45,787 bases of DNA from NCBI GenBank assembly GCA_030837625.1, contig JAUPKF010000006.1, positions 1 to 45,787 of the forward strand, read 5' to 3'. Numbering within the stretch: position 1 is the stretch's first letter; the number at the start of each line of letters is the position of its first letter. Made by a program: the position numbers and the translations under genes. Shown one piece after another: positions 6,717 through 41,648 of this stretch. Source of the stretch: Patescibacteria group bacterium (GTDB taxonomy: Bacteria > Patescibacteriota > Minisyncoccia > Moranbacterales > UBA2206). Below the pieces are notes generated by a model, which saw nothing but the letters and a program-made list of their open reading frames with translations, had not been told where the DNA came from and made no database searches.

Positions 6717-7676
6717 ATGAAGATACTAAATACGATCGGTTCGATATACACCGAAGAGGCGAAGGAATTATTAAAAGGAATAGGCGACGCGGATTATCTG
6801 GACTTGGAAAACCAAGAGCAGCTTAAGGAGATAGTTGGCAATTATGAGATTGCGGTCATCGGGCTTGGATTGAACTATGATAAAGAAGTAATCGACGCGG
6901 GAAGAAAGCTCAAGATAATTGCCACTGCTTCGACCGGAACGGACCATATCGACCTGAATTATGCCCGAAAAAATGGGGTTACAGTGTTAAGTCTGAAAAA
7001 CGATCGAAAATTTTTGGACAGTATAACCGGTACGGCGGAGCTGGCTTTTCTCTTGACCCTGGCACTTATGAGAAACTTTTTGCCAGCTACAAAGTCGACT
7101 CTTGGTTATTGTTGGGCGGATAAATTCAGGGGCCATAATCTATATAAAAAAACTTTGGGAATTGTGGGGCTCGGGAGACTCGGGACAATGATGGCGCGGT
7201 ATGGGAACGCTTTTGGGATGAAAGTCATTGCCTGCGATCCTTATCTGGAAGATAAAGTTTTTTCAAAGACTAATTGTAAAAAAGTTGATTTTGATGTTCT
7301 CTTGAAATCAAGCGACATTATATCCATACACGTTCATCTAAGCGAAGAAACGAAAAACATGTTTGACAGTAGAGCTTTTGAGCTTATGAAAAAAGAGGCG
7401 ATTATCGTCAATACCTCAAGGGGAAAAATTGTCAACGAAAAAGATATCCTTGATGCTCTTAAGAAAAATAAAATCGCGGGATACGCGACGGATGTTTTGT
7501 CGGATGAGTTGAACTTCAACCAGAAGTTTGAAAATAACGCTCTTATAAAATACGCAAAGCGCAACAGCAATGTTATAGTTACTCCACATGTCGGAGGAGT
7601 GACATTCGAGTCTAGGGAGGCGACAGATATCTTTATCGCCAAAAAAGTCATTAAAGAGTTAAATAAATCAAAATGA
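6717..7676 (+). CDS. D-isomer-specific 2-hydroxyacid dehydrogenase (3-phosphoglycerate dehydrogenase-like)
   Basis: A 319-residue NAD-dependent dehydrogenase with the catalytic triad Arg235 (VNTSRG), Glu264 (DVLSDE) and His291 (TPHVGG), and the nucleotide-binding GLGRLG at 151-156. It has the short form of the family, without the ACT domain of full-length SerA. Family members interconvert 2-keto acids and D-2-hydroxyacids. It starts 37 nt after the previous gene and overlaps the following methyltransferase by ATGA, so it belongs to the operon. Its place just before a sialic-acid-synthase-like gene suggests a role in making or modifying a keto- or hydroxy-acid used in the glycan. That is inference, and simple serine biosynthesis cannot be excluded. 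Confidence 0.88.
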   Translation: MKILNTIGSIYTEEAKELLKGIGDADYLDLENQEQLKEIVGNYEIAVIGLGLNYDKEVIDAGRKLKIIATASTGTDHIDLNYARKNGVTVLSLKNDRKFLDSITGTAELAFLLTLALMRNFLPATKSTLGYCWADKFRGHNLYKKTLGIVGLGRLGTMMARYGNAFGMKVIACDPYLEDKVFSKTNCKKVDFDVLLKSSDIISIHVHLSEETKNMFDSRAFELMKKEAIIVNTSRGKIVNEKDILDALKKNKIAGYATDVLSDELNFNQKFENNALIKYAKRNSNVIVTPHVGGVTFESREATDIFIAKKVIKELNKSK

Positions 7677-8503
7677 TGATGAATATCAAGCAAGTCGCTT
7701 TGCTCAACAAGGAAGGCGAAATTATTGAAAGTTTCGGTAAAGGAAAGAAAAAATATCAATCCTCCTCTGTCCTCCCGGTGGTTATTGACTATTATCTTTG
7801 GGACAGCGAGAAACAGCATGATAGCGCCGAGAAATATAAAGATCAAATCAAGCGGGTTTTTTATCAGGAGAAAGTGGAACCAAAAATTAAAAATATGCTT
7901 CAAGATGATATCCAAAGATTAGAATTGGCGCAGAAATTTTCTTATGGAGAAAAAGTTTTGGAAACAGGATGCAGTGATGGAAGCGTAAGTATTAAAATCG
8001 CCCAGTTGCCAAAAGTTAAAAGAGTAGTGGGTATTGATATTCGTCCTTCCGCTATTAAGGATGGAAAATTGTTAATAAAAGATTTAGTCAGAAAGAAAGA
8101 AATAAGTTCCGAAACGGCTAAAAAAGTTTTTTTGCTAAACTATGCCAATGAAAACTTTCCCAGTCGTTATGGACAGTTTGATTCGGTTTGCGCTTATGAA
8201 ATTTTTGAGCATTTGTCCCCGCAGGATCTCCTGCCGATTTTCCAGAGCACGTATAAGTTTTTGAAAAAAAACGGAAATTTTTTTGTCAGTGTTCCCAACC
8301 GTTTTCCCGACAAAAAATATGACAAACTTGGGAGATCAAGATGGAAATGGTTTGATCACCGCAATTTTTTCAGCCAGTTAAGTCTAGAGATGTTTTTAAA
8401 GAAATTTTTTAAACAAGTCAAGTTTCACTCCCTTTATCCGGGAGAAAAAATTGAAGACGGGATATATCTAATTTGTGAGTGCAAGGGAAAATTATATGAC
8501 TAA
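7673..8503 (+). CDS. SAM-dependent methyltransferase
   Basis: A 276-residue protein with motif I VLETGCSDGSV (95-105), VVGIDIRPSAI at strand 2, and SVCAYEIFEHLSPQ before strand 5. About 90 residues precede the fold, longer than in minimal family members, and are charged. The start ATG is one of two consecutive ATGs and overlaps the dehydrogenase stop. Its own stop overlaps the NeuB-like gene that follows by 8 nt. The tight coupling to the dehydrogenase and to the synthase suggests that the three act on one precursor. The substrate is unknown. Confidence 0.82.
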   Translation: MMMNIKQVALLNKEGEIIESFGKGKKKYQSSSVLPVVIDYYLWDSEKQHDSAEKYKDQIKRVFYQEKVEPKIKNMLQDDIQRLELAQKFSYGEKVLETGCSDGSVSIKIAQLPKVKRVVGIDIRPSAIKDGKLLIKDLVRKKEISSETAKKVFLLNYANENFPSRYGQFDSVCAYEIFEHLSPQDLLPIFQSTYKFLKKNGNFFVSVPNRFPDKKYDKLGRSRWKWFDHRNFFSQLSLEMFLKKFFKQVKFHSLYPGEKIEDGIYLICECKGKLYD

Positions 8504-9326
8504 AATAATTGCGGAAATTGCTTCGTGTCACAATGGAGATATTGAGCTGGCGAAAAAAATGGTTCAGGAGGCGGCTAAGACGGGGGTGGATATTGTCAAG
8601 TTCCAATCATGGCAAAGCAAAAATGTTGATGATAAGGATCCTGATAAGAAAAGGTATGCGTCTTTGGAACTTTCCGACGACGCGCATTATATCCTGAAAG
8701 AAGAATGTAAAAAAAACGGCGTTGAGTTTTTGACAACTTGTTATGATGGAAACAGGGTAGGTTTCTTAAAAAAACTGGGGCTTAAAAAAATAAAAGTTGC
8801 CAGTACTGATCTCAAGCATTTTGACTTTCTCAAGAAGTTGAGGGATAATTTCGAAGAAGTCATTGTTTCGACCGGCATGTCGACTGAAGGTGAAATGAAA
8901 AAGGCAGCGGACATCCTGAAAACAGGAAGGTTTACCATTATGCATTGTGTTTCGGTTTATCCATGTCCTTTGGAAAAAGCCAACCTTAAAAAGCTTTTAT
9001 GGCTCAAAACAATAGCCGGATCCGTTGGTTACTCCGACCATGTTCAGGGCGTAGAGGCGGCTGTATTTTCATTGGGTATGGGAGTGGATTACATTGAAAA
9101 GCATTTCACGCTTGATCGGAACATGCCGCAGATAGCCCATACCACTGGGGAGGGGTTAAGGCCGATTACCACGCATACTATCGCTGACGAACCGGAAGTG
9201 TTTCGAGAATTATGCCGATGGAGGGATAAATATGAAATAGCTTTGGGGTCCGGTAGCCTTGAGCTTTTGCCGGAGGAAAGATTAACTCGAGAGAAATATA
9301 CGGGAAGATTAGGGAGGAATAATTGA
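8496..9326 (+). CDS. neuB: Nonulosonic acid synthase, NeuB family, short form without SAF domain (set 1)
   Basis: The NeuB TIM barrel is clear: IIAEIASCHNGD (4-15), VDIVKFQSWQ (31-40), VIVSTGMST (122-130), VGYSDH (177-182) and EKHFTLDR (201-208). The family condenses phosphoenolpyruvate with ManNAc or a related hexose to give a nine-carbon 2-keto acid. At 276 residues it stops soon after the barrel. The C-terminal antifreeze/SAF-like domain, which in NeuB dimers contributes to the partner's active site, is absent. The usual PGPDH-SLEP loop after EKHFTLDR is replaced by unrelated residues with extra His and Thr. I chose the ATG at 8496, which has AAGGGA just upstream, over a GTG at 8475. It is followed directly by neuC and neuA homologues. 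Confidence 0.85.
   Translation: MTKIIAEIASCHNGDIELAKKMVQEAAKTGVDIVKFQSWQSKNVDDKDPDKKRYASLELSDDAHYILKEECKKNGVEFLTTCYDGNRVGFLKKLGLKKIKVASTDLKHFDFLKKLRDNFEEVIVSTGMSTEGEMKKAADILKTGRFTIMHCVSVYPCPLEKANLKKLLWLKTIAGSVGYSDHVQGVEAAVFSLGMGVDYIEKHFTLDRNMPQIAHTTGEGLRPITTHTIADEPEVFRELCRWRDKYEIALGSGSLELLPEERLTREKYTGRLGRNN
9311..9320 (+). promoter_or_regulatory. Strong Shine-Dalgarno that favours a TTG start for neuC set 1
   Basis: AGGGAGGAAT lies inside the 3' end of the neuB-like gene. Its GGAGG core ends 5 nt before an in-frame TTG at 9323 that overlaps the neuB stop. The first in-frame ATG, at 9344, is 26 nt from the core, which is too far. TTG is therefore the likelier start, although family alignments would begin near the ATG. 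Confidence 0.6.
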
Positions 9327-10504
9327 TAACGATTTATAGCATTATGCAAAAAAGAAAGATTTGCTTCATCCTTACTAGTCCTATCCATTATAGTCGGAAT
9401 TTTCTGATTCTTGAAGAATTGAAAAAAAGAAAAGATATCGAACTGCATATCGTTTTAGGCGGTTCAATTCTTCTGAATAAATATATTTCTCATAGTTTCA
9501 ATATCAGAAAGATTCTTCAAGATGAAAAATATGAAAATATCCATGAGGCGCATTTCAACCTGGATGGAGACAATTTAGTCATTAAGTCTAAAACGGTCGG
9601 GTTGGGGATTGTTGAATTTTCATCTATCTTTAACGAAATCAATCCTGACCTTGTGGTGGTGCGCGCGGATCGGTTCGAGGTTATGGCTGCCGCTCTGGCT
9701 GCTTCCTATATGAATATTCCTATTGCTCACATTGAGGGAGGAGACAAAAGCGGGACATTGGACGAATCGGTCAGGCATGCTATCACTAAATTGTCCCACA
9801 TTCATTTTGCGACCAATGAAGATGCTCGCGAAAGAATAATCAGGATGGGAGAAAGGAAGGAATACGTTTTCAATTTTGGCAGTCCGGATATAGAGGTAGT
9901 GAAGCATGTTTTCAATAATGGAAACAGTGTTGATTTGAATAATGAGGGGAGTGGGGCAGATTTCAATCCGAAGAAAGATTTCTTAATTGTTATGTATCAT
10001 CCGGTGACAAGCGAGATTGATAATCTTTCATTGCATACAAAAGAAATCCTCAAAGCTGTTCATGGTCTGGGTATGCAAATTCTTTGGTTCTGGCCGAACT
10101 TTGACGCGGGATCGGAAACTATCTCAAAAGAGCTAAGGATTTTCAACGACATGGTTTCGAGGCACAAGATAAAATTTTTAAAATATCTGCATCCGAAAAA
10201 ATTTATTTTTCTTCTTTCAAAGACAAAATGCTTGGTTGGAAATTCTTCAGCGGGAATAAAAGAATGTTCCTATTTGGGTGTTCCGGTGGTAAATATTGGT
10301 AGCCGCCAAAACGAAAGATTGAGGTCTGACAATGTTTGTGACTGCGGAAATTCAAGCGAGGAAATTATGAAAGCCATTCGCAAACAGATGAAAATAGGGC
10401 GATATAAAACTTCAAATTTATATTCCTCAAACGATACGAGCAAGGATATTGCTGAAGTTTTGGTAAAAAGCAGGCTTTATGCGCAGAAAAAATTTGTCGA
10501 CTAA
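9323..10504 (+). CDS. neuC: UDP-sugar 2-epimerase (hydrolysing), NeuC family (set 1)
   Basis: A 393-residue GT-B-like epimerase. It keeps the NeuC signature block HIEGGDKSGTLDESVRHA (136-153) followed by ITKLSHIHFATNEDA, an ADRFE element (115-119) matching the canonical GDRFE, and GNSSAGIKE near the C-terminus. Hydrolysing members turn UDP-GlcNAc or a derivative into ManNAc (or a 6-deoxy diamino relative) plus UDP, the substrate for the NeuB step. The probable TTG start is supported by a strong ribosome site. An ATG at 9344 would remove seven residues. It sits between neuB and neuA, the expected order for a nonulosonate pathway. The exact sugar cannot be read from sequence. Confidence 0.87.
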   Translation: MITIYSIMQKRKICFILTSPIHYSRNFLILEELKKRKDIELHIVLGGSILLNKYISHSFNIRKILQDEKYENIHEAHFNLDGDNLVIKSKTVGLGIVEFSSIFNEINPDLVVVRADRFEVMAAALAASYMNIPIAHIEGGDKSGTLDESVRHAITKLSHIHFATNEDARERIIRMGERKEYVFNFGSPDIEVVKHVFNNGNSVDLNNEGSGADFNPKKDFLIVMYHPVTSEIDNLSLHTKEILKAVHGLGMQILWFWPNFDAGSETISKELRIFNDMVSRHKIKFLKYLHPKKFIFLLSKTKCLVGNSSAGIKECSYLGVPVVNIGSRQNERLRSDNVCDCGNSSEEIMKAIRKQMKIGRYKTSNLYSSNDTSKDIAEVLVKSRLYAQKKFVD

Positions 10505-10508
10505 ATTT

Positions 10509-11222
10509 ATGAACAAGAAAAAAAGAAAATCAAAAAAAGGCCTGATTGTTGTTCCGGCTCGCGGAGGGTCAAAGGGCATAAAGAATAAGAATATAGTGGA
10601 TGTCGGAGGGGACCCCTTGATTCTTTATACGATTAACCCGGCTCTAAAAATAAAAAAGGATGGCCTGGCAGATGGGGTGATTGTTTCAACAGACAGTCTT
10701 AAAATCGCTGATATTGCAAAGAAACTCGGAGCAGATGTTCCTTTTTTACGGCCAAAGAAAATTTCCGGAGACAAGGCTAAATCAATCGATTTTATACTAC
10801 ACGCTCTTTATCATTTTGAAGAGAGGGGAGTTTTTTTTGATTATGTTGTTTTATTACAGCCGACATCACCTTTGAGAAGTTACGAGGATATAGAAGGAGC
10901 CATAAAACTATATATGGACAGTGAAAACGATTCTTTGATTTCCGTTTGTCGCGAGGAAAGAGTGGATGAAACGGAGCTATATTATAACAAAAAAGGAATA
11001 GGCATTCCGCTTTCGCCGAATCATAACAAGGGGATAAGAAGACAGGATATAAGACCTATGTTTACCAGAAATGCCGCCATATATATAACTGCTACTGAAT
11101 ATCTCAAGAAAGAAAGAAGAATAATTTCAGACAATCCAGCGCTTTATGAAATGCCGATAGAGCGATCGCTTGACATAGACACAAAGGAAGATCTGAAAGA
11201 ACTTCGGAGCATCTTAAGATAA
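10509..11222 (+). CDS. neuA: CMP-nonulosonate cytidylyltransferase, NeuA family (set 1)
   Basis: A 237-residue nucleotidyltransferase with VPARGGSKGIKNKN (15-28), the CTP-binding motif of acylneuraminate cytidylyltransferases. It also has VIVSTDS, LLQPTSPLRS and the late SLDIDTKEDL element that binds metal. The family activates a nonulosonic acid as its CMP derivative. RNAAIYI replaces the usual YxxNGAIY segment, so the substrate pocket may differ. The N-terminus is very Lys-rich. An ATG at 10479, overlapping neuC by 26 nt, has a weak AGCAGG upstream and is an alternative start. The gene closes the first neuB-neuC-neuA set and is followed by a 75-nt gap. Confidence 0.87.
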   Translation: MNKKKRKSKKGLIVVPARGGSKGIKNKNIVDVGGDPLILYTINPALKIKKDGLADGVIVSTDSLKIADIAKKLGADVPFLRPKKISGDKAKSIDFILHALYHFEERGVFFDYVVLLQPTSPLRSYEDIEGAIKLYMDSENDSLISVCREERVDETELYYNKKGIGIPLSPNHNKGIRRQDIRPMFTRNAAIYITATEYLKKERRIISDNPALYEMPIERSLDIDTKEDLKELRSILR

Positions 11223-11297: not shown

Positions 11298-14240
11298 ATG
11301 AAAATTGACTTGAATAGTTTTATTGAGAAATACTGGCTCCCCCTTCTTAAGGAAAATTCAAACAAGAGAAAAGTCATTGAATACAAGGATCCAGATCAAT
11401 TGAAAAGGGAAATAAGTTTTCGGTTGGGGTCAAAAAAGCAAATCGCGAATGGAGAAGACTTGCGAAAACTTTTCGAAAAGGTGATCAAATATACCCCTTT
11501 TTCTTCTCATCCTAATTTTTTGAATTATTTATACTCTGGTCCTGATCCGGTTGGCCTTCTAGGCGACTGGCTGGTTTCTTTTGTAAATTCGAATGTCCAT
11601 GCCTACGAGGCTTCTCCCATATTTTCAATAGCCGAGGTGGAGTTGATAAAAGAGCTTAGGAAATACGTCGGATTCGAAAAAGAAGGCGATGGTATATTTT
11701 GCCCGGGCGGTTCTTATTCAAATTTTTTGGCAGTGTATTGCGCCAAGAAAAAAATTATTGACAAGCTGTCCAAAACAAGAAAATTAGCATTATTCACCTC
11801 GACTCATTCTCACTATTCCATCGATAAAACGGCGGCTGTTTTGGGTTTTGGAGATATTGTGGTTTATAAAGTAGAATGCGATCCAAGGGGCAGAATGATA
11901 GCCGACGATTTGAAAATAAAAGTTGAAAAGTCGGTGAAGAAAAGAGAAGTCCCATTTCTTATTTTTGCAACTGCCGGCACTACCGTTTTGGGGGCATTTG
12001 ATTCGATCGAAGATATTTTTCGAGTAGCCGAGAAGAGCTGTCCGGGGATTTGGATTCACGTTGATGCTGCTTGGGGAGGACCAATTCTTTTTTCAAAAAA
12101 ATATCAAAAATTGATGGAGGGGATCGGAAAAGTTGATTCAGTAACTTGGGATTTTCACAAGGCAATGAACGCTCCCATCTTGTGCTCAGTGCTCCTTTTG
12201 AAAGAAGGATCTCATTTGAAGACAATGTTCAATGTTGAGGACAGCTACTTATTCCATCAAGAAAGAAACAGCGAATATGAGATTGGAAAAAAAACTCTTC
12301 AGTGCGGAAGGCGGGGGGATGCTTTTAAATTCTGGCTGATGTGGCAAGTCTATGGAGCGAAACATTTTGAAGAAGAAATGAACAGAAAAATGTCGGTTGT
12401 GCAAATGGCGATAAAGCTGATAAAGAAGAGGGAGAATTTTTTGCTTTATCGGGATGATATTGACTATTTAAACGTTTGTTTCTGGTATATCCCTCGAAGT
12501 TTGAGAAAAAAAATGAAAAGCAGAAATTTTTCCGTCAAAGAAAAAAAAGAAATCGCTTTTTTCACGAAAAGAATATACCAGTTGATGATAAAAGATGGAC
12601 AGGTTTTGATAAATTTTGCCAAGGTTTTTAATTGTCCGGAATTTTTCCGATTAATAGTCAGCAATCCTAATTTGAATAAAGCGGAGATCGAGAAGGTTCT
12701 CGATGTCATTGATTCGTTAGGAGAGATTCTGGATAAAAATCTCAGCGAGCTTTTGATATCGGGAGGAGATAGTAGGCTTCATTTGGGAAGCAATGGAATG
12801 AATTATGTTTTTACAGCTCCTTTGCCAAAGCCAGATCAAGTTTCTCGATCAAGCTGCACCTCTTCAAGAATTTCCTTGCAAGAAGAGAAGAAGCTTGGAA
12901 AAATACTTCATGGATTGAAGCATGGTGAGTCTTCTTTTTCGGAATGCATGTCGGATGTCCATAGAAGGATCAGAAAAATTATAGATATTGACGAAAATGT
13001 AAGTGTTATTACAACGCCCTCCGGAACAGATAGTGAATACATACCCCTTCTAATAGCTGGGGCTTATACAAGAGATGTTTTGGATGTGAAGAATATAATG
13101 ACTGGTATGGGCGAGATCGGATCCAATTCAGCCGTGGCGGCGGCTGGAAATTATTTCAACTTCAAGACTCCATTTGGATCAAATGTTAAAAAGGGCAGAC
13201 CGCTTCTGAAAATGAATGTCGAAATTATCGGAGTTTCTCAGCGCGATTCACAGACTGGAAAACCTCAGATGAAGAAGGATGAATGGCAGGCTCATGTAAA
13301 GAATGCGCTCCGCAAAAAAGATTCTGTGGTGCTGCTGCATATTCTTGAGTCTTCAAAGCTTGGCTATCGGATCGACGCTATGGGCGAAGTGAAAAAAATG
13401 ATTTCAGATTATTCAGAAAATTTCTTAGTGGTTGTGGATGCTTGCCAGAGCAGGACAGATATTAAAAGAATCAGGGAATATTTAAAGATGGGCTGTATGG
13501 TGATGATTACGGGATCTAAATTTGAAGAAGCCCCTCCCTTTTGTAGTGCAGTACTAATACCGGAGAAAATAATGGCGGGCTTAACATCTAAAGATTTCAA
13601 AAAATTTCCAAAACGACTTTCGGACTTCATTACCTTGCATGACATTTCGGGACCCGTTCGAGAAATGCTGGGTTGTTGCCCAAGAAGTTGGATGAATTGG
13701 GGGTTGATGTTTCGTTGGACAGTAGGCTTAGATAATTGGGAGGAGTACCGAAAAATTTCTGATGCAAAGAGGACTAAGCTTGTCAGGGGCTGGGTAAGAA
13801 GCGTTGCGAAGATGGCAAAAGAATATCCAAATCTTGGTTTCTTTGGTGGAGGGGAAGATCAGCCAGGGTCTGTTGGTGATATCAACACAATTTTTTCTCT
13901 AACGTTAAAACAGGGGCAAAAGCTAATGTCAATTGACAGTGTAAAAAAAATATATGAATGGATGGCAATGAGTCTCGATGAGAATGTCACAAGATATTTG
14001 AAAATAACGAAAAGTCAGAAAGAGACGTTAAAAATATCTTTTTTGCTTGGCCAGCCGGTAGACATGGGGAAGTACGCCGCAATAAGGGTTGCATTGGGAG
14101 CAACACTGGTGGCTAGGATGAACGAAATTGGAGTAAAGAAAATCCTCCTTGAGGATCGGACGCTTCTAACGAAACTTTCGATATTGACTAAAAATTATCA
14201 TACATTGAAGGGCATTTCAAATGAGAGTAACCAGTTATAA
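11298..14240 (+). CDS. Double PLP enzyme: GAD/CSAD-like group II decarboxylase fused to a second PLP-fold domain
   Basis: A 980-residue protein in two halves. Residues 1-485 match group II amino-acid decarboxylases of the glutamate/cysteine-sulfinate type: GDGIFCPGGSYSN (130-142), SHYSIDK (171-177), ATAGTTVLGAFD (224-235), HVDAAWGG (254-261) with Asp256, WDFHK (284-288) with the probable Schiff-base Lys288, and CGRRGDAFKFWLMW (336-349). Residues 520-980 look like another fold-type I PLP domain: SGTDSE (575-580), VVVDACQSR (711-719) with Asp714, and ITGSKFEEAPPF (737-748) with candidate Lys741. The first half should decarboxylate an acidic amino acid. The reaction of the second is unknown. The gene lies between the two neu sets and overlaps the PP-loop gene by 20 nt. 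I know of no characterised enzyme with this arrangement. Confidence 0.82.
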   Translation: MKIDLNSFIEKYWLPLLKENSNKRKVIEYKDPDQLKREISFRLGSKKQIANGEDLRKLFEKVIKYTPFSSHPNFLNYLYSGPDPVGLLGDWLVSFVNSNVHAYEASPIFSIAEVELIKELRKYVGFEKEGDGIFCPGGSYSNFLAVYCAKKKIIDKLSKTRKLALFTSTHSHYSIDKTAAVLGFGDIVVYKVECDPRGRMIADDLKIKVEKSVKKREVPFLIFATAGTTVLGAFDSIEDIFRVAEKSCPGIWIHVDAAWGGPILFSKKYQKLMEGIGKVDSVTWDFHKAMNAPILCSVLLLKEGSHLKTMFNVEDSYLFHQERNSEYEIGKKTLQCGRRGDAFKFWLMWQVYGAKHFEEEMNRKMSVVQMAIKLIKKRENFLLYRDDIDYLNVCFWYIPRSLRKKMKSRNFSVKEKKEIAFFTKRIYQLMIKDGQVLINFAKVFNCPEFFRLIVSNPNLNKAEIEKVLDVIDSLGEILDKNLSELLISGGDSRLHLGSNGMNYVFTAPLPKPDQVSRSSCTSSRISLQEEKKLGKILHGLKHGESSFSECMSDVHRRIRKIIDIDENVSVITTPSGTDSEYIPLLIAGAYTRDVLDVKNIMTGMGEIGSNSAVAAAGNYFNFKTPFGSNVKKGRPLLKMNVEIIGVSQRDSQTGKPQMKKDEWQAHVKNALRKKDSVVLLHILESSKLGYRIDAMGEVKKMISDYSENFLVVVDACQSRTDIKRIREYLKMGCMVMITGSKFEEAPPFCSAVLIPEKIMAGLTSKDFKKFPKRLSDFITLHDISGPVREMLGCCPRSWMNWGLMFRWTVGLDNWEEYRKISDAKRTKLVRGWVRSVAKMAKEYPNLGFFGGGEDQPGSVGDINTIFSLTLKQGQKLMSIDSVKKIYEWMAMSLDENVTRYLKITKSQKETLKISFLLGQPVDMGKYAAIRVALGATLVARMNEIGVKKILLEDRTLLTKLSILTKNYHTLKGISNESNQL

Positions 14241-15849
14241 AAATGATAAGAACAAAAAAATGGATGATTATGTAAAGAGCGGGGCATATAAGTGGAAAAT
14301 CGCTATTCCTTTGAATTGCGACCATGATCTCATTAGATGTGAAGGGGGCGCAAAAATTGACAAAAACTCCGGAAAATTGAATATTAGTGTCCCTGATTTT
14401 CAAGGTAATGGCAGACATATTCTTGTTGTAATCGAGAATAAAAATGATATTGAAATCTATTCTTTTCCCATGAATGTTCAAAGATGTTATGCGAGAATAA
14501 CTGGCAATTATTTAATCGTCAGTAATATCGCAAAGTCTTTAATGAAAGAAAACGAAAAGATTCGACTTAATGGTGAAGTTTTATTAAGACAGATCTCAAA
14601 TTTATTTGCGCCGTTGGACGATCTGTTTGGGGATATAAAATTGCTTGACGCCTCTTCTATTTTTCGGGTTATAAATAACGAAATAATTTTTAAGGAGAGT
14701 CAAATAAAGCCCATAAAGAGTACAACTAGTTCAGTTCAGGAATATATTATTAGCAAGTATGATCGAATATGCAAGGAAGGGAAGCCTTTAGCGGTTCTCC
14801 TTAGCGCTGGCATTGATTCTCGTCTTAATTTGGCATTATGCCATTATTTTTCAAAAAAATATAGGAATGAAATAGTTGTTTACCATGAATACAAGGACAG
14901 AAAAGAACATGACATTGCAAAACATATAGCAGACGAATTGAAACTTCCCTTTGTGAGTATTTCAAGAGATAGATTTAAAAATGAACCATTGGAATATATA
15001 TTATCCCCCGAGTTCATTAGTTTTCATGGTGGAATTTATAGGGATACCCTTGCTAGATGGTTTAGCTATATGGATGTAATAAAGCTGAGCAATCCCGACG
15101 CTACTATTATTGGATTAGCCGGTGACCCTCATAAAGGAAAATTTTATAGGGATATACATCACTTGCCAAATGATCTTGAAAAAATGCTAAAATATAGAAT
15201 GAAGGACGAGAAGATCGCGGAAGAGAAGGATTTTATGCCCTATCTGTCAAATGAAAAGACAGATGAGTTTTTTTCTAGCACCCATAGAAGAGCCTTAATT
15301 TCTAGTGATCCTTGTTTCCAGACGGACTTTATCTTTTACCATGTCCAAGCCGCACAGCAATCTGCCTCGAGAAGCCCATTTTTTCATTTAAACTATAAAA
15401 TTCCTTTTCCGTTAAACGACGACCATTTTCTTTCCATGGCATTCAGCTTGCCAAAAAAGGAAAAAATGGACGCAGCTATTTCTTTAAACCTTATCGAAAA
15501 AATAAATCCGACTCTGAACAGGATACCCTATCATAGCGGAAACGCAGGTGGTTTCAGAAACCGCTACGAAAATTTAATGATTGAAATAATGAGTATGATT
15601 GTTTCGAAAGAAAAAAGTTCAAGCCGTCGGGATGAAGATGTCAGGTGGAATCACCCGAGCATTGTTAGCTATTTGGGTGGCGCTTCCAGCGATATCACCG
15701 AAAAACTCGAGAGGTTTATCAGGGCAAATTTGGGAAAACGACAAAAAAACGGACGAATAAGGGTTGAATGCGCCTTGAGAGTATACTTGTTCCTTCGGCA
15801 AGTTGAAAAAGAGCTGGGAATCAATTTTTTTGTAAATAAAGAATCATGA
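14221..15849 (+). CDS. Asparagine-synthase-like ATP pyrophosphatase (PP-loop) protein without active glutaminase
   Basis: A 542-residue protein. The PP-loop LLSAGIDSR (193-201) corresponds to the SGGxDS ATP-binding loop of asparagine synthetases, and the following 340 residues have the length of that synthetase domain. The N-terminal 180 residues occupy the glutaminase position but lack the Cys2 nucleophile and the RGPD region, so ammonia from glutamine is not expected. Such domains adenylate a carboxylate and can join it to an amine (compare beta-lactam synthetase). GAAGGG lies 8 nt before the ATG at 14221. The gene overlaps the double-PLP gene by 20 nt and the next gene by 4 nt. The amine donor and acid acceptor are unknown. 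Confidence 0.75.
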   Translation: MRVTSYKNDKNKKMDDYVKSGAYKWKIAIPLNCDHDLIRCEGGAKIDKNSGKLNISVPDFQGNGRHILVVIENKNDIEIYSFPMNVQRCYARITGNYLIVSNIAKSLMKENEKIRLNGEVLLRQISNLFAPLDDLFGDIKLLDASSIFRVINNEIIFKESQIKPIKSTTSSVQEYIISKYDRICKEGKPLAVLLSAGIDSRLNLALCHYFSKKYRNEIVVYHEYKDRKEHDIAKHIADELKLPFVSISRDRFKNEPLEYILSPEFISFHGGIYRDTLARWFSYMDVIKLSNPDATIIGLAGDPHKGKFYRDIHHLPNDLEKMLKYRMKDEKIAEEKDFMPYLSNEKTDEFFSSTHRRALISSDPCFQTDFIFYHVQAAQQSASRSPFFHLNYKIPFPLNDDHFLSMAFSLPKKEKMDAAISLNLIEKINPTLNRIPYHSGNAGGFRNRYENLMIEIMSMIVSKEKSSSRRDEDVRWNHPSIVSYLGGASSDITEKLERFIRANLGKRQKNGRIRVECALRVYLFLRQVEKELGINFFVNKES

Positions 15850-17450
15850 TTTTGAAAAATTTATTCAGAAATAAAACAGGCGAAAACATCCAGGAATTCA
15901 TACGCGCAAACAAAAGGCACTGGCGCGATATCAAGGGGTCATCTTCCAATGGCTATATATTGATGCTGTTTAAAAACAGTGTTACTAACTACGTCTTGGC
16001 TCCCAGGACGGTGAAGTCAATAGAAGAGGAAACAGGGTGCCTGCCTTTGGCGATTTTGAATTCTTTCAGTTTTTTGTTTGATTCGAAGAAAAAAATATAC
16101 CAATCTTTCAATATAAACAATTTTATATATTATAAAAATTATTTTTACAATATTTCCGATATCATCAAGTCTTTTTATTTAGCAATTAGGTTTTTTTGGC
16201 GACGTAGGAGTGTTGATGATTTGTTGAAATTAGAATTCAAAGGTATTTATATCGGCGATCTGGTATACGACACTATTTTGAGGAATAATGCCGGCTTGTA
16301 TACTATAGATAAAATCAAATGGACTTATTTTAAATATTTTTTCATTGCGTATTTTCAAACGATTATATATGAGAAAATATTCCAAAGGTATGATATAAAA
16401 TATATTTTTTGCGGATTGTTGATTTTCATAAAATGGGGGATTCCGGCTAGGGTCGCCGACAAGCACGGAGCAGTTGTACTGATAGCCAAAAAGAACCTGA
16501 TGAAAAATTATAAGGGTCTGGATGTTTCTGAAGGGCAGTATCGACCAAGAGAATCAGACGTTAATTTTCTGAAAAAAAGCGAGAAGGTGGAAGCGGATGT
16601 GGACAGGTATATGTCTGAGCGTTTTTCGGGTAGCATAGCTGAGGTGGATGCTATGAGATCTTTCAAAGGAAAAGCCGGATACGATAAGAAAAAATTATGC
16701 GAAACGCTCGGTATCGAAAAAGATAAACCCATAGTTTTTATAATGGCGCATGCTTTTTCTGATGGACCGCATCATTCACCCACGGAAAATCTTCTTTTCA
16801 GGGATTATTATATTTGGTTGGTTGAAACCATAAAGTATGCATCCCGTATAAAAACCGTGAATTGGGTAGTTAAGCCGCACCCGATGTCTTTCAAATATAA
16901 AGAAGAAGGTGCCGTAGAAAAACTAGTAGCCTTGTATGGCAATGCCAATATCCATCTTGCGCCTGGAGATTTCAGCACTAAAAATATCAAGGATTTCGCT
17001 CACGCTATTGTTACCGTACAGGGGAAAGCCGCTTTGGAGTTTGGCTGTTTCGGAATTCCTTCTGTTGTAGCCTCTTTGGCGCCTTATAGCGGATATGGAT
17101 TGGCTGTCGAGCCAAAGATAAAGGAAGAATATTTTGGTATATTAAAAAATATAGGTTCAATTTCCAAGTTGAGTAAAGAACAAATAAAAACCGCCAAAGT
17201 GCTTTCGGCAATTATGTTCATATATTCACGGACCGATGACGCATTGGTGCATGATCTCCCGACCTTCAGAAGCGAGAAGGAAGAAGAAAAATGGAAGCAT
17301 TTCTATGCAGTGATAAAAAGTTATGACAGGTCAAGGGATGGCATGTACCTGCGAATAAAAGATTTGATAAATTTAAATTTTTACAAAAAATACGAATATT
17401 ATGAAGACAAGAAAAATACTGGCAATTATTCCGGCGCGAGGCGGCTCTAA
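15846..17450 (+). CDS. GT-B-like surface polysaccharide protein with KPHP motif (possible glycosyltransferase)
   Basis: A 534-residue protein. The C-terminal half carries WVVKPHPMS (340-348) and VTVQGKAALEFGCFGIPSVV (389-408). This pairing of an HP motif with a downstream Ser/Gly-ALE element is seen in capsule KpsC/KpsS-like proteins, CDP-glycerol transferases and some sialyltransferases. The N-terminal 220 residues are aromatic and not recognised. It overlaps the PP-loop gene by ATGA. Its last 16 codons overlap the start of the second neuA gene by 50 nt. Transfer of a CMP-nonulosonate is a reasonable guess given the neighbours on both sides, but a clear acidic-acidic-Gly sialyltransferase motif is not visible. 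Confidence 0.65.
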   Translation: MILKNLFRNKTGENIQEFIRANKRHWRDIKGSSSNGYILMLFKNSVTNYVLAPRTVKSIEEETGCLPLAILNSFSFLFDSKKKIYQSFNINNFIYYKNYFYNISDIIKSFYLAIRFFWRRRSVDDLLKLEFKGIYIGDLVYDTILRNNAGLYTIDKIKWTYFKYFFIAYFQTIIYEKIFQRYDIKYIFCGLLIFIKWGIPARVADKHGAVVLIAKKNLMKNYKGLDVSEGQYRPRESDVNFLKKSEKVEADVDRYMSERFSGSIAEVDAMRSFKGKAGYDKKKLCETLGIEKDKPIVFIMAHAFSDGPHHSPTENLLFRDYYIWLVETIKYASRIKTVNWVVKPHPMSFKYKEEGAVEKLVALYGNANIHLAPGDFSTKNIKDFAHAIVTVQGKAALEFGCFGIPSVVASLAPYSGYGLAVEPKIKEEYFGILKNIGSISKLSKEQIKTAKVLSAIMFIYSRTDDALVHDLPTFRSEKEEEKWKHFYAVIKSYDRSRDGMYLRIKDLINLNFYKKYEYYEDKKNTGNYSGARRL

Positions 17451-18138
17451 AGGGATTCCGCGGAAAAATATTTTTCCGTTGGCAGGGAAACCTCTCTTGG
17501 CATGGTCTGTCGAAGCGGCGCTGAAGTCAAAACATATTGATAAGGTAGTTGTTTCTTCGGATGATGGTGAGATTCTCGATGTTGCGGAAAAATTTGGCGC
17601 CGAACCGATAAAGAGGCCAAAGTCCATGGCGGAAGACAAATCTCCTTTCAATCTTTTGATTTTTCATGCGTTGGACTATCTAAAGAAAAATAAGAAGTAT
17701 ATTCCGGATACTTTGGTGTATCTGCAACCAACTTCGCCGCTTAGGACGACTGAAGATATCGATCAAGCCTTTTCACTCATGAATGGTGACGTGACAAGCG
17801 TAATAAGCGTTTACAAACTTGATAATAAATTTCTGAAATCATTTCTTGTCGGAGAAAGAGGATATCTACGGGGAGTTGCTAATAAACAGTTTTCTTTTAA
17901 AAATCGCCAGGAATTGCCCGAAGTTTATATGCCCAATGGAGCGATTTATATGGTAAGAAGAGATTTTTTTCAGAGAACAGGTAGACTATTTTCCCCAAAA
18001 ACTGTTCCTTTCGTGATGAGTCAGGAAAAAAGTGTAGATATAGATACAAAAGAGCACATGAGGGAGGTTGAAAAGAAACTGAAAATGCAAAAAAGCAGAC
18101 ATCATCAAGCGATCATGCTATGTTCAAATCTTTCTTAA
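17401..18138 (+). CDS. neuA: CMP-nonulosonate cytidylyltransferase, NeuA family (set 2)
   Basis: A 245-residue protein with AIIPARGGSKGIPRKN (8-23), VVVSSDDGEIL, LQPTSPLRTTEDI and the canonical YMPNGAIYM. It also has KSVDIDTKEHM near the end. It activates a nonulosonic acid with CTP. It is clearly distinct from the neuA of set 1, differing in the acceptor-pocket NGAIY element and in length. The ATG at 17401 must be close to the true start because the CTP-binding motif begins within 12 residues. This forces a 50-nt overlap with the preceding gene. It heads the second neuA-neuB-neuC set. Confidence 0.9.
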   Translation: MKTRKILAIIPARGGSKGIPRKNIFPLAGKPLLAWSVEAALKSKHIDKVVVSSDDGEILDVAEKFGAEPIKRPKSMAEDKSPFNLLIFHALDYLKKNKKYIPDTLVYLQPTSPLRTTEDIDQAFSLMNGDVTSVISVYKLDNKFLKSFLVGERGYLRGVANKQFSFKNRQELPEVYMPNGAIYMVRRDFFQRTGRLFSPKTVPFVMSQEKSVDIDTKEHMREVEKKLKMQKSRHHQAIMLCSNLS

Positions 18139-18190
18139 TTTGTTAGAATGAATAAGCAAAAATACTGACACAATAGGGATATAAAAATTT

Positions 18191-19234
18191 ATGAGTCAAA
18201 AGTTTATCACAATTAGAAGCAGGAAAATTGGACCGGAGTTTCCACCTCTGGTAATTGCAGAAATCGGCATTAACCATGAGGGTAGCATCAAGAAAGCCAA
18301 GCAGATGGTAAAAGACGCGCATTTGGCCGGGGCGGAATGCGTGAAATTCCAAGCTCACGTGGTTGAAGACGAAATGGTCCCGATTGCGAAAAAAATCATT
18401 CCCGGACATGCTAAAGAATCCATCTGGGACATAATGAAAAAATGCGCTTTTTCCGAAGCGCAGGATAGGGAGCTAAAGAAGTACGTCGAGAGTCTCGGGA
18501 TGATATATTTGTCAACGCCTTTTTCACGAGCAGGAGCTGATAGACTCAAAAGAATGGATGTCAAGGCTTTCAAAATTGGCTCCGGAGAATGCAATAACTA
18601 TCCTTTAGTTGAGCACATTGCTTCATTTGGCAAACCGGTCATTTTGAGTACCGGCATGAATGATTTGGCTTCTATAAAAAAGAGTGTGAGAATTCTGGAA
18701 AAATACAAGGTTCCCTACGCGATATTGAACTGCACTTCTATGTACCCAGTTCCTTATGACAAGGTGCGTTTAGGAGCGATTGAAGAATTGCAGAAGGCTT
18801 TTCCTAAGGCGGTTGTCGGCTTGAGCGATCATTCGATTGGAAATTATACATGTTTCGGAGCAGTAGCTTTAGGCGCTCGTATATTGGAAAAGCATTTCAC
18901 TTCTTCCAAAAAATGGCCAGGACCGGATGTTGCGCTTTCAATTGATCCTGCGGAACTCAAGGATTTGATTTTTGGTTCAAAAGCGGTATTTGAGGCGCTT
19001 GGTGGTGGGAAGAATATCCTCCCTGAGGAGCAAGGTATAATAGAATTTGCTTATGCTTGCGTGGTTTCGATCAAAGAAATAAAGAGAGGTGAAAAATTCA
19101 GCAGAGAAAACATCTGGGTAAAGCGTCCGGGAACCGGGGAAATTAAAGCAGTGGAATTTGATAGAATTTTGGGAAGAAAATCTTCCAGAGATATTGAAAA
19201 AGATGTCCAGTTGAAATTAAAAGATGTTATTTGA
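18191..19234 (+). CDS. neuB: Nonulosonic acid synthase, NeuB family, full length with SAF domain (set 2)
   Basis: A 347-residue synthase. The barrel shows IAEIGINHEG (22-31), VKFQAHV (51-57), LSTGMNDL, GLSDHS and EKHFTSSKKWPGPDVALS with the PGPD loop intact. From about residue 287 a C-terminal SAF/antifreeze-like domain follows, containing KRPGTGEIKAVEFDRILGRK. It condenses PEP with a ManNAc-like or 2,4-diamino hexose to give a nine-carbon acid. The NeuB, LegI and PseI subfamilies cannot be separated with confidence by eye. A 52-nt gap separates it from neuA, the largest within this set. The contrast with the SAF-less synthase of set 1 suggests that the two make different products. Confidence 0.9.
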   Translation: MSQKFITIRSRKIGPEFPPLVIAEIGINHEGSIKKAKQMVKDAHLAGAECVKFQAHVVEDEMVPIAKKIIPGHAKESIWDIMKKCAFSEAQDRELKKYVESLGMIYLSTPFSRAGADRLKRMDVKAFKIGSGECNNYPLVEHIASFGKPVILSTGMNDLASIKKSVRILEKYKVPYAILNCTSMYPVPYDKVRLGAIEELQKAFPKAVVGLSDHSIGNYTCFGAVALGARILEKHFTSSKKWPGPDVALSIDPAELKDLIFGSKAVFEALGGGKNILPEEQGIIEFAYACVVSIKEIKRGEKFSRENIWVKRPGTGEIKAVEFDRILGRKSSRDIEKDVQLKLKDVI

Positions 19235-19250
19235 ATCAACCTAGCTTATC

Positions 19251-20411
19251 ATGAAACAAATAAAAAAGAGGAAAATTTTGTTTGTAACCGAACGCCGCAC
19301 TGATTACAGTCGGCTTAAGTCGATTATGGAAGCTGTACAGAAAAGCGAAAAGCTTGAGTTGCAGTTGCTGGTGACCGGGATACACTTGCTGAAAGATTTT
19401 GGGGAAACGAAAAAATTTATCGACAGGGACGGGTTTAAGATAGATGCGATACTGCCAATGTTTTCAGACGAAGATATCGACGACGGATCCTCAATGGTCA
19501 AAGGCCTAGGCAGAGTGCTATCCGGTATGCCTGATATTTTCAAGAAACTCAAGCCAGATATACTTTTTGCCGGTTTTGACATCGGCGCTAATTTTGCGGC
19601 GGCAATAACCGCGATGCATTTGAATATTCATGTGTCGCATCATGAAGGGGGAGAGAGATCCGGAACCATTGACGAGGTAATGCGTCATGCTATTACTAAA
19701 TTTTCCCATGTTCATTTTGCCTGTTCTGACCAAAGCGTAAGACGGATTATAAGGCTTGGAGAGGATCCAAGATATGTTTTTAACGTGGGCGTTCCCAGTA
19801 TTCAAACTATAAAAGAAATTAAATATTGGGATAAAGATAAAATTTTCGAAAAATATGATTTGGACTCCGGCAAAAAATTGATAATTTTTCTTCAGCATTC
19901 AGTAACGACTGAAGTTGATTCAGTCGAAGCGCAGATCAGGGAAAGCGCTAAGGCTATCAACGAAATTATCGATAAACATAAGGTTCAGGCAATTGCCATA
20001 TATCCCAACAATGATGCCGGCGGAAGGCGTATAGTTGAATTCTTAAATCAATCGGGGATAAAAGTGTTTCCGCATATCGACCGCGATGATTTTTTTCGTT
20101 TAATGAAAGTAGCCGATGCTTTGGTGGGTAATTCAAGTTCGGGGATTCATGAGACTCCAACTTTCGGTTTGCCAACAGTGAATGTTGGCACGCGTCAGCA
20201 ATTCCGGGAACGCGGTGGCAATGTTATAGATGCGGGATATGATTCTAGAGAGATAAAAAAAGCGATTGAAAAGGCTCTATCCGACAAAAATTTTTTGCGC
20301 AAATCAAGAAAGGCGAAAAATCCATATGACCAAGGCAATAGCGCTGAGAAGATTGTTCATATTCTGGAAACAATCGATTTGCCGCCTATTCAAAAGGTAA
20401 TAACCTATTAA
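19251..20411 (+). CDS. neuC: UDP-sugar 2-epimerase (hydrolysing), NeuC family (set 2)
   Basis: A 386-residue protein with FVTERRTDYSRL (11-22), HHEGGERSGTIDEVMRHA (130-147) and ITKFSHVHFACSD, plus VGNSSSGIHETP near the C-terminus, all typical of hydrolysing NeuC/LegG epimerases. The usual GDR-x-E element is replaced by GFDIGAN (108-114): Asp110 is kept, but the Arg and Glu are not. This may mark another UDP-sugar substrate, such as a 6-deoxy-4-amino form. It follows neuB by 16 nt and precedes the SDR gene by 5 nt, so one transcript is likely. Confidence 0.87.
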   Translation: MKQIKKRKILFVTERRTDYSRLKSIMEAVQKSEKLELQLLVTGIHLLKDFGETKKFIDRDGFKIDAILPMFSDEDIDDGSSMVKGLGRVLSGMPDIFKKLKPDILFAGFDIGANFAAAITAMHLNIHVSHHEGGERSGTIDEVMRHAITKFSHVHFACSDQSVRRIIRLGEDPRYVFNVGVPSIQTIKEIKYWDKDKIFEKYDLDSGKKLIIFLQHSVTTEVDSVEAQIRESAKAINEIIDKHKVQAIAIYPNNDAGGRRIVEFLNQSGIKVFPHIDRDDFFRLMKVADALVGNSSSGIHETPTFGLPTVNVGTRQQFRERGGNVIDAGYDSREIKKAIEKALSDKNFLRKSRKAKNPYDQGNSAEKIVHILETIDLPPIQKVITY

Positions 20412-38833: not shown

Positions 38834-39139
38834 ATGTGTGATTATTTAGCTTGTCCTAGCGATTTATCAGTTGCCATATTCTTTTTTATGCTGTTTGGCA
38901 TTGCTTCTTTAATGATTTATTGGAAAAATAGAAGGGTGCTTGTCAGTCTCTTTGTTTTTTCTTTTTTGTCAAATATTGTTTTATATGAAATTATTGATTA
39001 TAGATTTTCCGTTATTTATGGAGGAGCATGGATATTTAAATTTACTCGATTCATTTGGCCGTGGCTTAACCTAGTTCTACTCATTTTACTAATAACAAAC
39101 TTCATCAAAAACAAATATGCCAAAGCAAAAAACCAATAA
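38834..39139 (+). CDS. Small membrane protein, unknown
   Basis: A 101-residue protein with three predicted hydrophobic segments (about 10-28, 35-52 and 72-92) separated by short charged loops, and a basic C-terminus. I do not recognise a family. GGGGAAG lies 9 nt before the ATG. It is driven by the promoter at 38728 and its 3' end overlaps the secreted lipase-like gene by 23 nt, so the two are probably translationally coupled. It may be a membrane partner or chaperone of that protein, which is inference from coupling alone. Confidence 0.65.
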   Translation: MCDYLACPSDLSVAIFFFMLFGIASLMIYWKNRRVLVSLFVFSFLSNIVLYEIIDYRFSVIYGGAWIFKFTRFIWPWLNLVLLILLITNFIKNKYAKAKNQ

Positions 39140-41648
39140 GATTTTTGCGATTGCTCTTGTTTCCGTTTTTGCGTTCTCTTTACATTTTTATCCCGTCCAA
39201 GCCGATGACGATTACCCCACGGAAAACGAAGAAGGAGAAGATTATCTTGATATATACGTCGATACCGTTTGGCGGAAAAACGACCCGCCAATCGAAAAAA
39301 GAGTGACTGTCTATCCTGGCGCCACCCTGACTATCGAAAAAGGAGCGGAAGTCAAATTTGGAAAAATAAACGAAATGGGAGACGACGCCTATCTTTCCAT
39401 TTGGGGAGGGCGCTTGGTAGCCGAAGGGACCCAAGATGAACCGATAAAAATAACCTCAGCTTCCGATTCCGACTATTATCTTCTCGAATTCAGGCGCGAA
39501 AGTTGGGACGGCATTCCAGAAGCCCAACCTTCCTTTTTGCGTTACGTGGAAATGTCAAACGCGGGATATGAAAACGAGCCTCCTTGCGAGGATTGCAACG
39601 CTTTTTGGAAAAAAATAATTCCCGCGGCTTATGCCGACATTATTGACGAAGGAATACCGGCAGTATATTTCGAAGGCGGAAGAGCTCATATGGAAAATTG
39701 CACTTTCCGCGATAACGAATACGCCGACATTGGAATGGACTATTGGGAAAACCCGGACAACCCAAGGAACGATTATCTGAAAATAGTCAATTCTAATTTT
39801 GAAAAAAACGGAGAAGCGTTGGCGGTCAAAACGGACATACGCTGCCAATTTTCCGGAGAAACCTGCCAGAAAAGACTTTTTCTCAAAAACAATTGGTACG
39901 GCGATCCAAATGGACCGTCTGATACCGATGGCAAGAAAATCGAAGGCGTGCATTATCTCGACGGCTGGAAGGGAAATGATTTGATCGCCGATCCGGTGAT
40001 CGTTATTCCGGGGATTATGGGGTCAATCAAAGTAAGCGATGAATTGGTTTTTGATCCGATTTATCAAACTTACTCTAATTTGGTCGCTTCTTTTGCAGAA
40101 AACGGATACGAAGAAGGTAAAAACTTTTTCAAATTTCCTTATGAATGGAGAAACAACAATGAGACTACGGCAATGCATTTGCAATCGCTAGTCGAAGGCG
40201 TAGTAAATAGTACAGGCGTTTCCAAAGTCGATATAGTAGCTCATTCAATGGGAGGACTTGTTGCTCGCACGTATATCGAAGAAATCGCGGGAACTCAATA
40301 CAGGGATAAAATCGATCAGCTGATAACGCTCGGGACGCCGCATAAAGGATCGCCAAAAGCCTATTTAAAATGGGAAGCGGGAGAAGGATTTGAAGATGTG
40401 TTTGATAAAATTGGTAAAGAAATGTTTAAAGTAGAAGCTCACCATGCCGGATATTCCGATTTGGGGAAATATATCCGGGAAAAAGTTACTTCCGTGGGTG
40501 AACTATTGCCGGACTATAACTACTTGTATGATATTTCTAAAAATGAAATGCGGGAATATTTCGAGAACTATCCGAGAAACATGTTCTTGGAAGACCTAAA
40601 CAATGAGTTTGGGATTGAAAAGCTGGAAAGTGTCAACTTTATCAACATCGTGGGAAATATCGAAGATGAAGAAAACACTGTCTCCAAATTCAGAGTTGTC
40701 GATTCGGACAAGTGGGAGCATGGGATGCCAGAGAACTACTATGATGATAGTACTGATCAGGGAATTGAATATGGAGCAGGAGACAAAACAGTACCATTCT
40801 TTAGTGCTTCTGGAATTTCCGCCGACGAAGAAATCGAAATCAACTCTACTCACAGTGATCTTCCCACTCAAGCCCAGTGCAAAGTGATTACCGAACTTAC
40901 CGGAACTCCCGAAAACGAATGCGACTACGTGAGCACTTTTGAAAGAATCGTTGATATTTTGACTTTCGGCGTCTTCTCTCCCGTCGACATCCAAGTTATC
41001 GAAACGAAAACCGGAAAATGGGCGGGCAAGAACATCAAAGGTCTCAATCCAAATGACCAAATCGAAGGCGCGTACTATACCGGCTTTGAGACGGAAAATG
41101 AATTCCTGACCGTTCCCAATCCGGAGAACGGGGAATATCAAATTGTTACGGAAGGAACGGGCGAAGGAGAATATCGTATTGAAGCCGCCAAGATAACGGA
41201 AGGCGCAAGCGGAAAGACTACCGAGTCGACAGTCGAGATAACCGGCGAAGCTCAAACGAACCAAACGGAAGAACTCACAATCGAAGTTCAAGAGGATAAA
41301 ATAATTCTCGAAGAAGAAGAAACGCCGGTTGACATCAATTCCATTATTCAAAATGTCCAAAGTTATTTCCAGTCCAAAATGATAACCAAAACCGAAAAGC
41401 AGTTCCTGGACATCCACCTTAAAAACATTCAAAACTCTTTCAAAGTCTTGGAAAAACTGAAGGAAAACAAGAAAATGAGTCCGCAAGCCAAGAGAATTGT
41501 GGTCAGAATTTTGGAACGGGGGATAAACTTTCAGATAGAATATCTGATACAGCGCCTGGAAAACCAAAAAGCGCCGCTCAAAAAACTCAACGAGAAAGTC
41601 AGAGCGGAGCTAGTTGATGATTTGAAGAAGATAAAATTGAAGGGATAG
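39117..41648 (+). CDS. Secreted protein: beta-helix-like N-terminal region plus LCAT/PGAP1-type alpha/beta hydrolase
   Basis: An 843-residue exported protein. Residues 1-29 form a signal peptide (basic start, hydrophobic core, AlaAsp at the end), with an acidic linker after it. Residues about 45-290 look like a right-handed beta-helix (VYPGATLTIEKGAEVKFG, PIKITSA, AVYFEGGRAHMENCTF). From about 292 a lipase-type alpha/beta hydrolase follows: VIPGIMGS (296-303), the nucleophile Ser377 in AHSMGG, LGTPHKGSP (405-413), and probable Asp556 (GAGDKTVP) and His579 (NSTHSDLP). The last 150 residues are Lys/Glu-rich and probably helical. It likely cleaves or forms an ester on lipids or acylated glycans outside the cell. 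A terminator follows at 41689. Confidence 0.83.
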   Translation: MPKQKTNKIFAIALVSVFAFSLHFYPVQADDDYPTENEEGEDYLDIYVDTVWRKNDPPIEKRVTVYPGATLTIEKGAEVKFGKINEMGDDAYLSIWGGRLVAEGTQDEPIKITSASDSDYYLLEFRRESWDGIPEAQPSFLRYVEMSNAGYENEPPCEDCNAFWKKIIPAAYADIIDEGIPAVYFEGGRAHMENCTFRDNEYADIGMDYWENPDNPRNDYLKIVNSNFEKNGEALAVKTDIRCQFSGETCQKRLFLKNNWYGDPNGPSDTDGKKIEGVHYLDGWKGNDLIADPVIVIPGIMGSIKVSDELVFDPIYQTYSNLVASFAENGYEEGKNFFKFPYEWRNNNETTAMHLQSLVEGVVNSTGVSKVDIVAHSMGGLVARTYIEEIAGTQYRDKIDQLITLGTPHKGSPKAYLKWEAGEGFEDVFDKIGKEMFKVEAHHAGYSDLGKYIREKVTSVGELLPDYNYLYDISKNEMREYFENYPRNMFLEDLNNEFGIEKLESVNFINIVGNIEDEENTVSKFRVVDSDKWEHGMPENYYDDSTDQGIEYGAGDKTVPFFSASGISADEEIEINSTHSDLPTQAQCKVITELTGTPENECDYVSTFERIVDILTFGVFSPVDIQVIETKTGKWAGKNIKGLNPNDQIEGAYYTGFETENEFLTVPNPENGEYQIVTEGTGEGEYRIEAAKITEGASGKTTESTVEITGEAQTNQTEELTIEVQEDKIILEEEETPVDINSIIQNVQSYFQSKMITKTEKQFLDIHLKNIQNSFKVLEKLKENKKMSPQAKRIVVRILERGINFQIEYLIQRLENQKAPLKKLNEKVRAELVDDLKKIKLKG

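Follow-up and report, generated by a model that had tools for sequence, protein, structure and literature searches.

A decarboxylase fused to a PLP enzyme from a widespread, unnamed family points to an undescribed amine-making route in a nonulosonic acid locus

Two described systems bring together a decarboxylase and a second enzyme in a way that resembles the locus analysed here. The genes for 2,4-diaminobutyrate (DABA) aminotransferase and DABA decarboxylase are adjacent or fused in several bacteria, where they serve a 1,3-diaminopropane pathway (PMC3969229); the likeness is that a group II decarboxylase has a PLP enzyme as its neighbour or fusion partner and that the product is an amine. 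In Campylobacter jejuni, ethanolamine or serinol is put on capsular glucuronate by Cj1436/Cj1437/Cj1438, which comprise a decarboxylase and a transaminating enzyme as well as an ATP-dependent ligase (PMC11800397). Here the likeness is the combination of decarboxylase, transaminating enzyme and amide ligase in a capsule locus, and it is an analogy only, drawn from the description of the enzymes; unlike in the present locus, the C. jejuni enzymes are encoded by separate genes and handle phosphorylated compounds. Both are precedents for the logic proposed below. The C-terminal half of the protein described below was not found to be a member of the enzyme families of either system.

The window (the whole 45,787-nucleotide stretch of DNA that was analysed) contains a single open reading frame at 11298–14240 (+) that encodes 980 residues without an internal stop: a group II PLP decarboxylase followed by a PLP enzyme that is class V-like and belongs to an unnamed family. 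The original prediction of a 980-residue fusion of two PLP folds holds, with the N-terminal half recognized by Pfam and the C-terminal half by a structural model and fold searches. Its residue numbering is exact, placing Asp256 and Lys288 in HVDAAWGG and WDFHK and Asp714 and Lys741 in VVVDACQSR and ITGSKF. Each half has a complete PLP fold or a family match, and the catalytic residues of both are intact.

The N-terminal half (residues 1–480; 11298–12737, +) matches Pyridoxal_deC (PF00282) over residues 53–397 with an E value of 4.1e-79 and 266 bits (cut-off 27). Its closest solved relatives in the PDB, all decarboxylases of acidic amino acids, are GADL1 (3.9e-102), CSAD (2.7e-101) and GAD1 (7e-101); it aligns with these group II enzymes over nearly the full length at ~1e-100, keeping the PLP lysine and aspartate. 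The pyridine-nitrogen aspartate, Asp256 (codon 12063–12065, +), and the Schiff-base lysine, Lys288 in the H-K motif DFHK (codon 12159–12161, +), are each conserved in 55 of 55 aligned decarboxylases. On sequence alone, we assign this half to the GAD/CSAD/GADL1 branch of the group II PLP decarboxylases. It differs from the described members in being fused to another PLP enzyme, in having His101 where GADL1 and CSAD have tyrosine and GAD has phenylalanine, and in having Tyr77 where all three have glutamine. The features that determine selectivity in this branch were described as hard to pinpoint in the paper on the GADL1 structure (PMC5947694).

The C-terminal half (residues ~480–980; 12735–14237, +) gave no meaningful match to Pfam, including its aminotransferase families, or to NCBIfam. 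Its relatives, taken as a set, gave one match to Pfam class V (PF00266) among 62 members, at 0.0078, and none to NCBIfam; a PDB sequence search with the profile of this family (hereafter the C family) returned weak desulfurase matches only, and a PADLOC search with the half itself returned none. An AlphaFold2 model, calculated from an alignment of 61 C-family loci, has a pLDDT of 91.2 and a pTM of 0.92. Foldseek and VIA-align place the half among the fold-type I enzymes, with the large and small domains both complete; the VIA ranking is led by class V enzymes (NifS and alanine–glyoxylate aminotransferase; Z of ~22, r.m.s.d. of ~3.6–4.2, ~350 residues aligned), and SepCysS is among the best fold matches. 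The lack of a PLP fold, which would have refuted the original prediction, is not what the model and the fold searches show.

Compared at profile level with IscS, SufS and SerC of E. coli and with the genome's own desulfurase, the half has VVVDACQ aligned with HVDATQ and TGSKF with SGHKI. Asp714, Gln717 and Lys741 align with Asp180, Gln183 and Lys206 of IscS (E value of 2.5e-4 in one comparison, at a probability of 43%), and an unforced MAFFT alignment placed the decarboxylases onto the C-terminal half with their aspartate and lysine on Asp714 and Lys741. Asp714 (codon 13437–13439, +) is therefore the predicted pyridine-nitrogen aspartate and Lys741 (codon 13518–13520, +) the predicted Schiff-base lysine, its position in the pocket being that suggested by the alignment with class V enzymes. 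All three residues are invariant in the 94 aligned C-family sequences, as are Glu606, Gly608, Arg649, Lys687, Arg719, Gly739, Ser740, Pro746, Gly802 and Arg806. The half resembles class V enzymes in its fold and in the D-x-x-Q, G-x-K and phosphate-loop S-G-T motifs; it differs from them in lacking a Pfam class V match and in having its own set of invariant arginines and lysines. Unlike in the desulfurases NifS and IscS, no cysteine is invariant among the 94 sequences, which makes desulfurase chemistry unlikely for the family. Since Asp714, Gln717 and Lys741 never vary, the half does not look degenerate. We would give very little credence to the idea that it serves the decarboxylase as a degenerate, regulatory or structural partner: its sequence is divergent, with ~25% identity to its relatives and a long branch in the tree, but the positions that align with PLP contacts do not vary and C-family relatives occur as separate genes.

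A first scan of genome contigs with the C-terminal half of the window protein alone found nothing. Using tblastn, distant relatives annotated as 'hypothetical protein' were found on rhizobial plasmids, and a profile built from these was then run on species genomes. It found at least 304 stretches that encode the family, and 80 loci were retained from these. The family occurs in Pseudomonadota, Bacteroidota (15 of the 395 genomes in a survey of that phylum), Actinomycetota, Myxococcota, Verrucomicrobiota and Planctomycetota and in the small-genome lineage of the window (the source genome is 0.97 Mb). It is widespread but unnamed and has no Pfam or NCBIfam model. No phage relatives were found, a literature search of open papers found no description of the family, and we know of no substrate for any member. 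The tree puts the C-terminal half of the window protein beside Flavobacteriales, a weak placement given the long branches. Some members (L014, L015–L017, L019, L045, L047, L122, L124 and L129) are proteins of ~700 residues with an N-terminal extension of ~160–190 residues that is absent from the window fusion; the whole proteins of L014 and L045 have no confident Pfam match. Another, of 837 residues (L042, 8917–11430), has a methyltransferase-like C-terminal domain (Pfam Methyltransf_25).

Within a sample of the window's own phylum, the C family was found in one of 379 genomes, so that the fusion rests on one assembly. A same-genus genome and other relatives that were searched do not have it, and a search of the relatives with the whole protein gave no match past the decarboxylase part. 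The rarity in the phylum, together with relatives that match the decarboxylase part only, suggests an external origin. Occurrence in a single assembly is also what favours an artefact of assembly or sequencing, in which two adjacent genes were merged. We consider such an artefact highly improbable: the junction is smooth and the frame is open across it, and the two functions are fused a second time in another phylum. The functional reading would in any case hold if the two genes were merely adjacent.

That second fusion is a Bacteroidota protein of 1214 residues (L121) in which the order is reversed, with the C domain (181–708) preceding a DABA-decarboxylase-like domain (722–1204); the pair has undergone at least two fusions, which differ in domain order. 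More often the two are separate neighbours. Among the 84 loci examined, which come from the genome scan and the plasmids and are not independent samples, 53 have a decarboxylase gene on the same strand as the C gene and no more than 4 kb from it. The decarboxylase overlaps the C gene or lies within 100 bases of it at 31 of those 53 (gene starts were set mechanically and overlaps may be overstated), while 31 of the 84 C genes have no decarboxylase recognized nearby. Stand-alone versions of both halves, which were to be looked for in other genomes, are thus neighbours in many of them. Together with the reverse-order fusion, they give good support to the core of the first of two readings in the original prediction, a decarboxylase working with a second PLP reaction; the other, a degenerate regulatory partner, is at odds with the invariant catalytic residues.

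The arrangement of these genes is not fixed. The order decarboxylase, ATP-grasp, C occurs at 22 loci, ATP-grasp, C, decarboxylase at 13, MfnA-like decarboxylase, C at five, C, decarboxylase, ATPgrasp_ST at four and C, fold-type III decarboxylase, asparagine synthase at two, and orders beyond these five also occur among the 84 loci. The partner decarboxylases fall into four groups: DABA-decarboxylase-like, MfnA-like, fold-type III LysA/ODC-like and, in the window, GAD/CSAD-like. Pairwise scores between the groups are low or nil. Fold-type III decarboxylases (PF02784/PF00278) have a fold distinct from that of the other groups, and the partners as a whole represent several lineages and two unrelated folds. 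None of the partners that were scanned against NCBIfam scored above a curated cut-off; the usual partner matches the DABA decarboxylase model best. An identification of the partner at L014–L021 as sphingosine-phosphate-lyase-like was considered and rejected, the nearest NCBIfam model being MfnA. The window decarboxylase scores only 85–127 bits against the usual partner group, which implies that the pairing was made anew in the window. A changing gene order combined with a changing enzyme argues for selection on the pairing of the C family with a decarboxylase.

These partners bear on the possibility that the fusion is a variant of the DABA system, the C domain converting aspartate semialdehyde to 2,4-diaminobutyrate, from which the decarboxylase would then form 1,3-diaminopropane. 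There is a precedent for such a fusion (PMC3969229), and the model for the DABA decarboxylase RhbB (NF052646) is the best NCBIfam match not only of the usual partner but also of the N-terminal half of the window protein. The latter match reaches 194 bits, however, far below the curated cut-off of 900. The PLP partner in the DABA pair is assigned to the aspartate aminotransferase family (PMC3969229), whereas the C-terminal half matches no aminotransferase model, and decarboxylases of other lineages take the same place at other loci. We regard this explanation as improbable.

The pair is usually found with an ATP-dependent amide ligase: an ATP-grasp protein (fused or adjacent), an ATPgrasp_ST protein or an asparagine synthase. 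In mechanically set reading frames, ATP-grasp is fused to the decarboxylase at L058, L074 and L079 and to the C gene at L062; a model of the ATP-grasp partner has a pLDDT of 91, with D-Ala-D-Ala ligase, LysX and RimK as its best matches. The genetic coupling of the C family extends to several decarboxylase lineages and to amide ligases. Near the C and decarboxylase genes there is a flippase at L034 and, in a Bacteroidota locus (L127), a flippase, glycosyltransferases and a UDP-sugar dehydrogenase. Divergent sulfotransferase-like (7908–8870) and FemAB/GNAT-like (6949–7911) genes lie beside the Flavobacteriales C, decarboxylase and asparagine synthase genes of L034.

Nine loci have no decarboxylase within 4 kb; each has an NRPS/PKS gene as a neighbour or carries the companion gene f5. 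The absence fits a C enzyme that supplies an amino acid building block. At rhizobial loci of the NRPS/PKS type, two recurrent genes come after the C gene, one for a small protein annotated with a ParB N-terminal domain and the next for a 249-residue protein without a Pfam match (10383–10784 and 10977–11726 in L003; also in L004, L035, L048 and L055). The loci without a decarboxylase are relevant to the order of the two steps, on which the coupling data are silent. In a reversed scheme, the decarboxylase would make an amine first and the C domain would transaminate or otherwise alter it; class V folds do include amine aminotransferases, and one of these, 2-aminoethylphosphonate transaminase, is among the fold matches of the C-terminal half. 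C genes beside NRPS/PKS genes without a decarboxylase fit an amino acid product better, and the pair is accompanied by ligases that would use an amine. We view the reversed order as rather unlikely.

In the window, the fusion sits in a nonulosonic acid/glycan locus between two sets of genes identified with NCBIfam: NeuB-, NeuC- and PseF/NeuA-like genes upstream (8475–11222, +) and PseF/NeuA-, NeuB- and NeuC-like genes downstream (17401–20411, +). The presence of two separate sets suggests that two nonulosonic acids are produced from one locus. The upstream NeuB-like protein (8475–9326; 283 residues) matches only positions 2–232 of the 329 in the model and seems, from this alignment, to lack the C-terminal part; a full-length NeuB-like gene is found at 18191–19234. 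The gene at 14221–15849 (+) shares 20 bases with the end of the fusion gene and encodes a PP-loop protein (motif LLSAGIDSRL). Its product aligns with asparagine synthases, including the PP-loop motif, with an hhalign E value of 6e-4, but falls below the Pfam Asn_synthase cut-off of 21 (E value of 0.018, 15.1 bits), so we assign it only weakly as an asparagine-synthase-like candidate amide ligase. A UDP-glucose/GDP-mannose dehydrogenase (43955–45280, +; PF03721/PF00984/PF03720) could supply a sugar carboxylate for amidation, if it is linked to the fusion. The gene at 39117–41648 encodes an 843-residue protein with an LCAT/lipase-like α/β-hydrolase region in the middle.

The reading that we favour, though tentatively, is that the fusion is a two-step PLP enzyme that acts ahead of a separate ligase. 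The C-terminal domain would make an unusual non-protein amino acid; we place this step first because C genes occur in NRPS/PKS-type loci without a decarboxylase, as expected of a building-block enzyme. The fused N-terminal decarboxylase would then strip the carboxyl group from this product to give an amine, perhaps with channelling between the two sites, and a separate ATP-dependent ligase would couple the amine to a carboxylate as an amide. The candidate for this role in the window is the asparagine-synthase-like neighbour of the fusion, and the acceptor is likely to be an acidic sugar of the surface glycan that the genes around the fusion produce.

A more specific proposal, which we hold to be doubtful, is that the C family is an undescribed one with an unassigned reaction, such as a β-substitution on serine or O-phosphoserine to give an amino acid like cysteate or 2,3-diaminopropionate, with the fusion yielding, in a single polypeptide, a taurine-like or ethylenediamine-like amine for the surface glycan. 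Several invariant arginines, the SepCysS fold match, the ParB-annotated rhizobial neighbour and the CSAD branch of the decarboxylase hint at it. ParB-fold serine kinases exist (PMC5120207, PMC12704722); the ParB-like neighbour gave no match when searched against Pfam, so that a serine kinase at these loci is only a lead, and the hints to phosphoserine are circumstantial.

The fusion offers a hint to the function of a broad group of bacterial proteins that are 'hypothetical' wherever their annotation was seen. The C family is constant, whereas its partner decarboxylase has repeatedly been swapped for unrelated enzymes, which would make the C enzyme the unchanging centre of a module for making amines, and one that can be assayed directly. 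The fusion and its linked genes point to an undescribed amine-making route, the amine of which, in this organism, probably serves to decorate a surface sugar.
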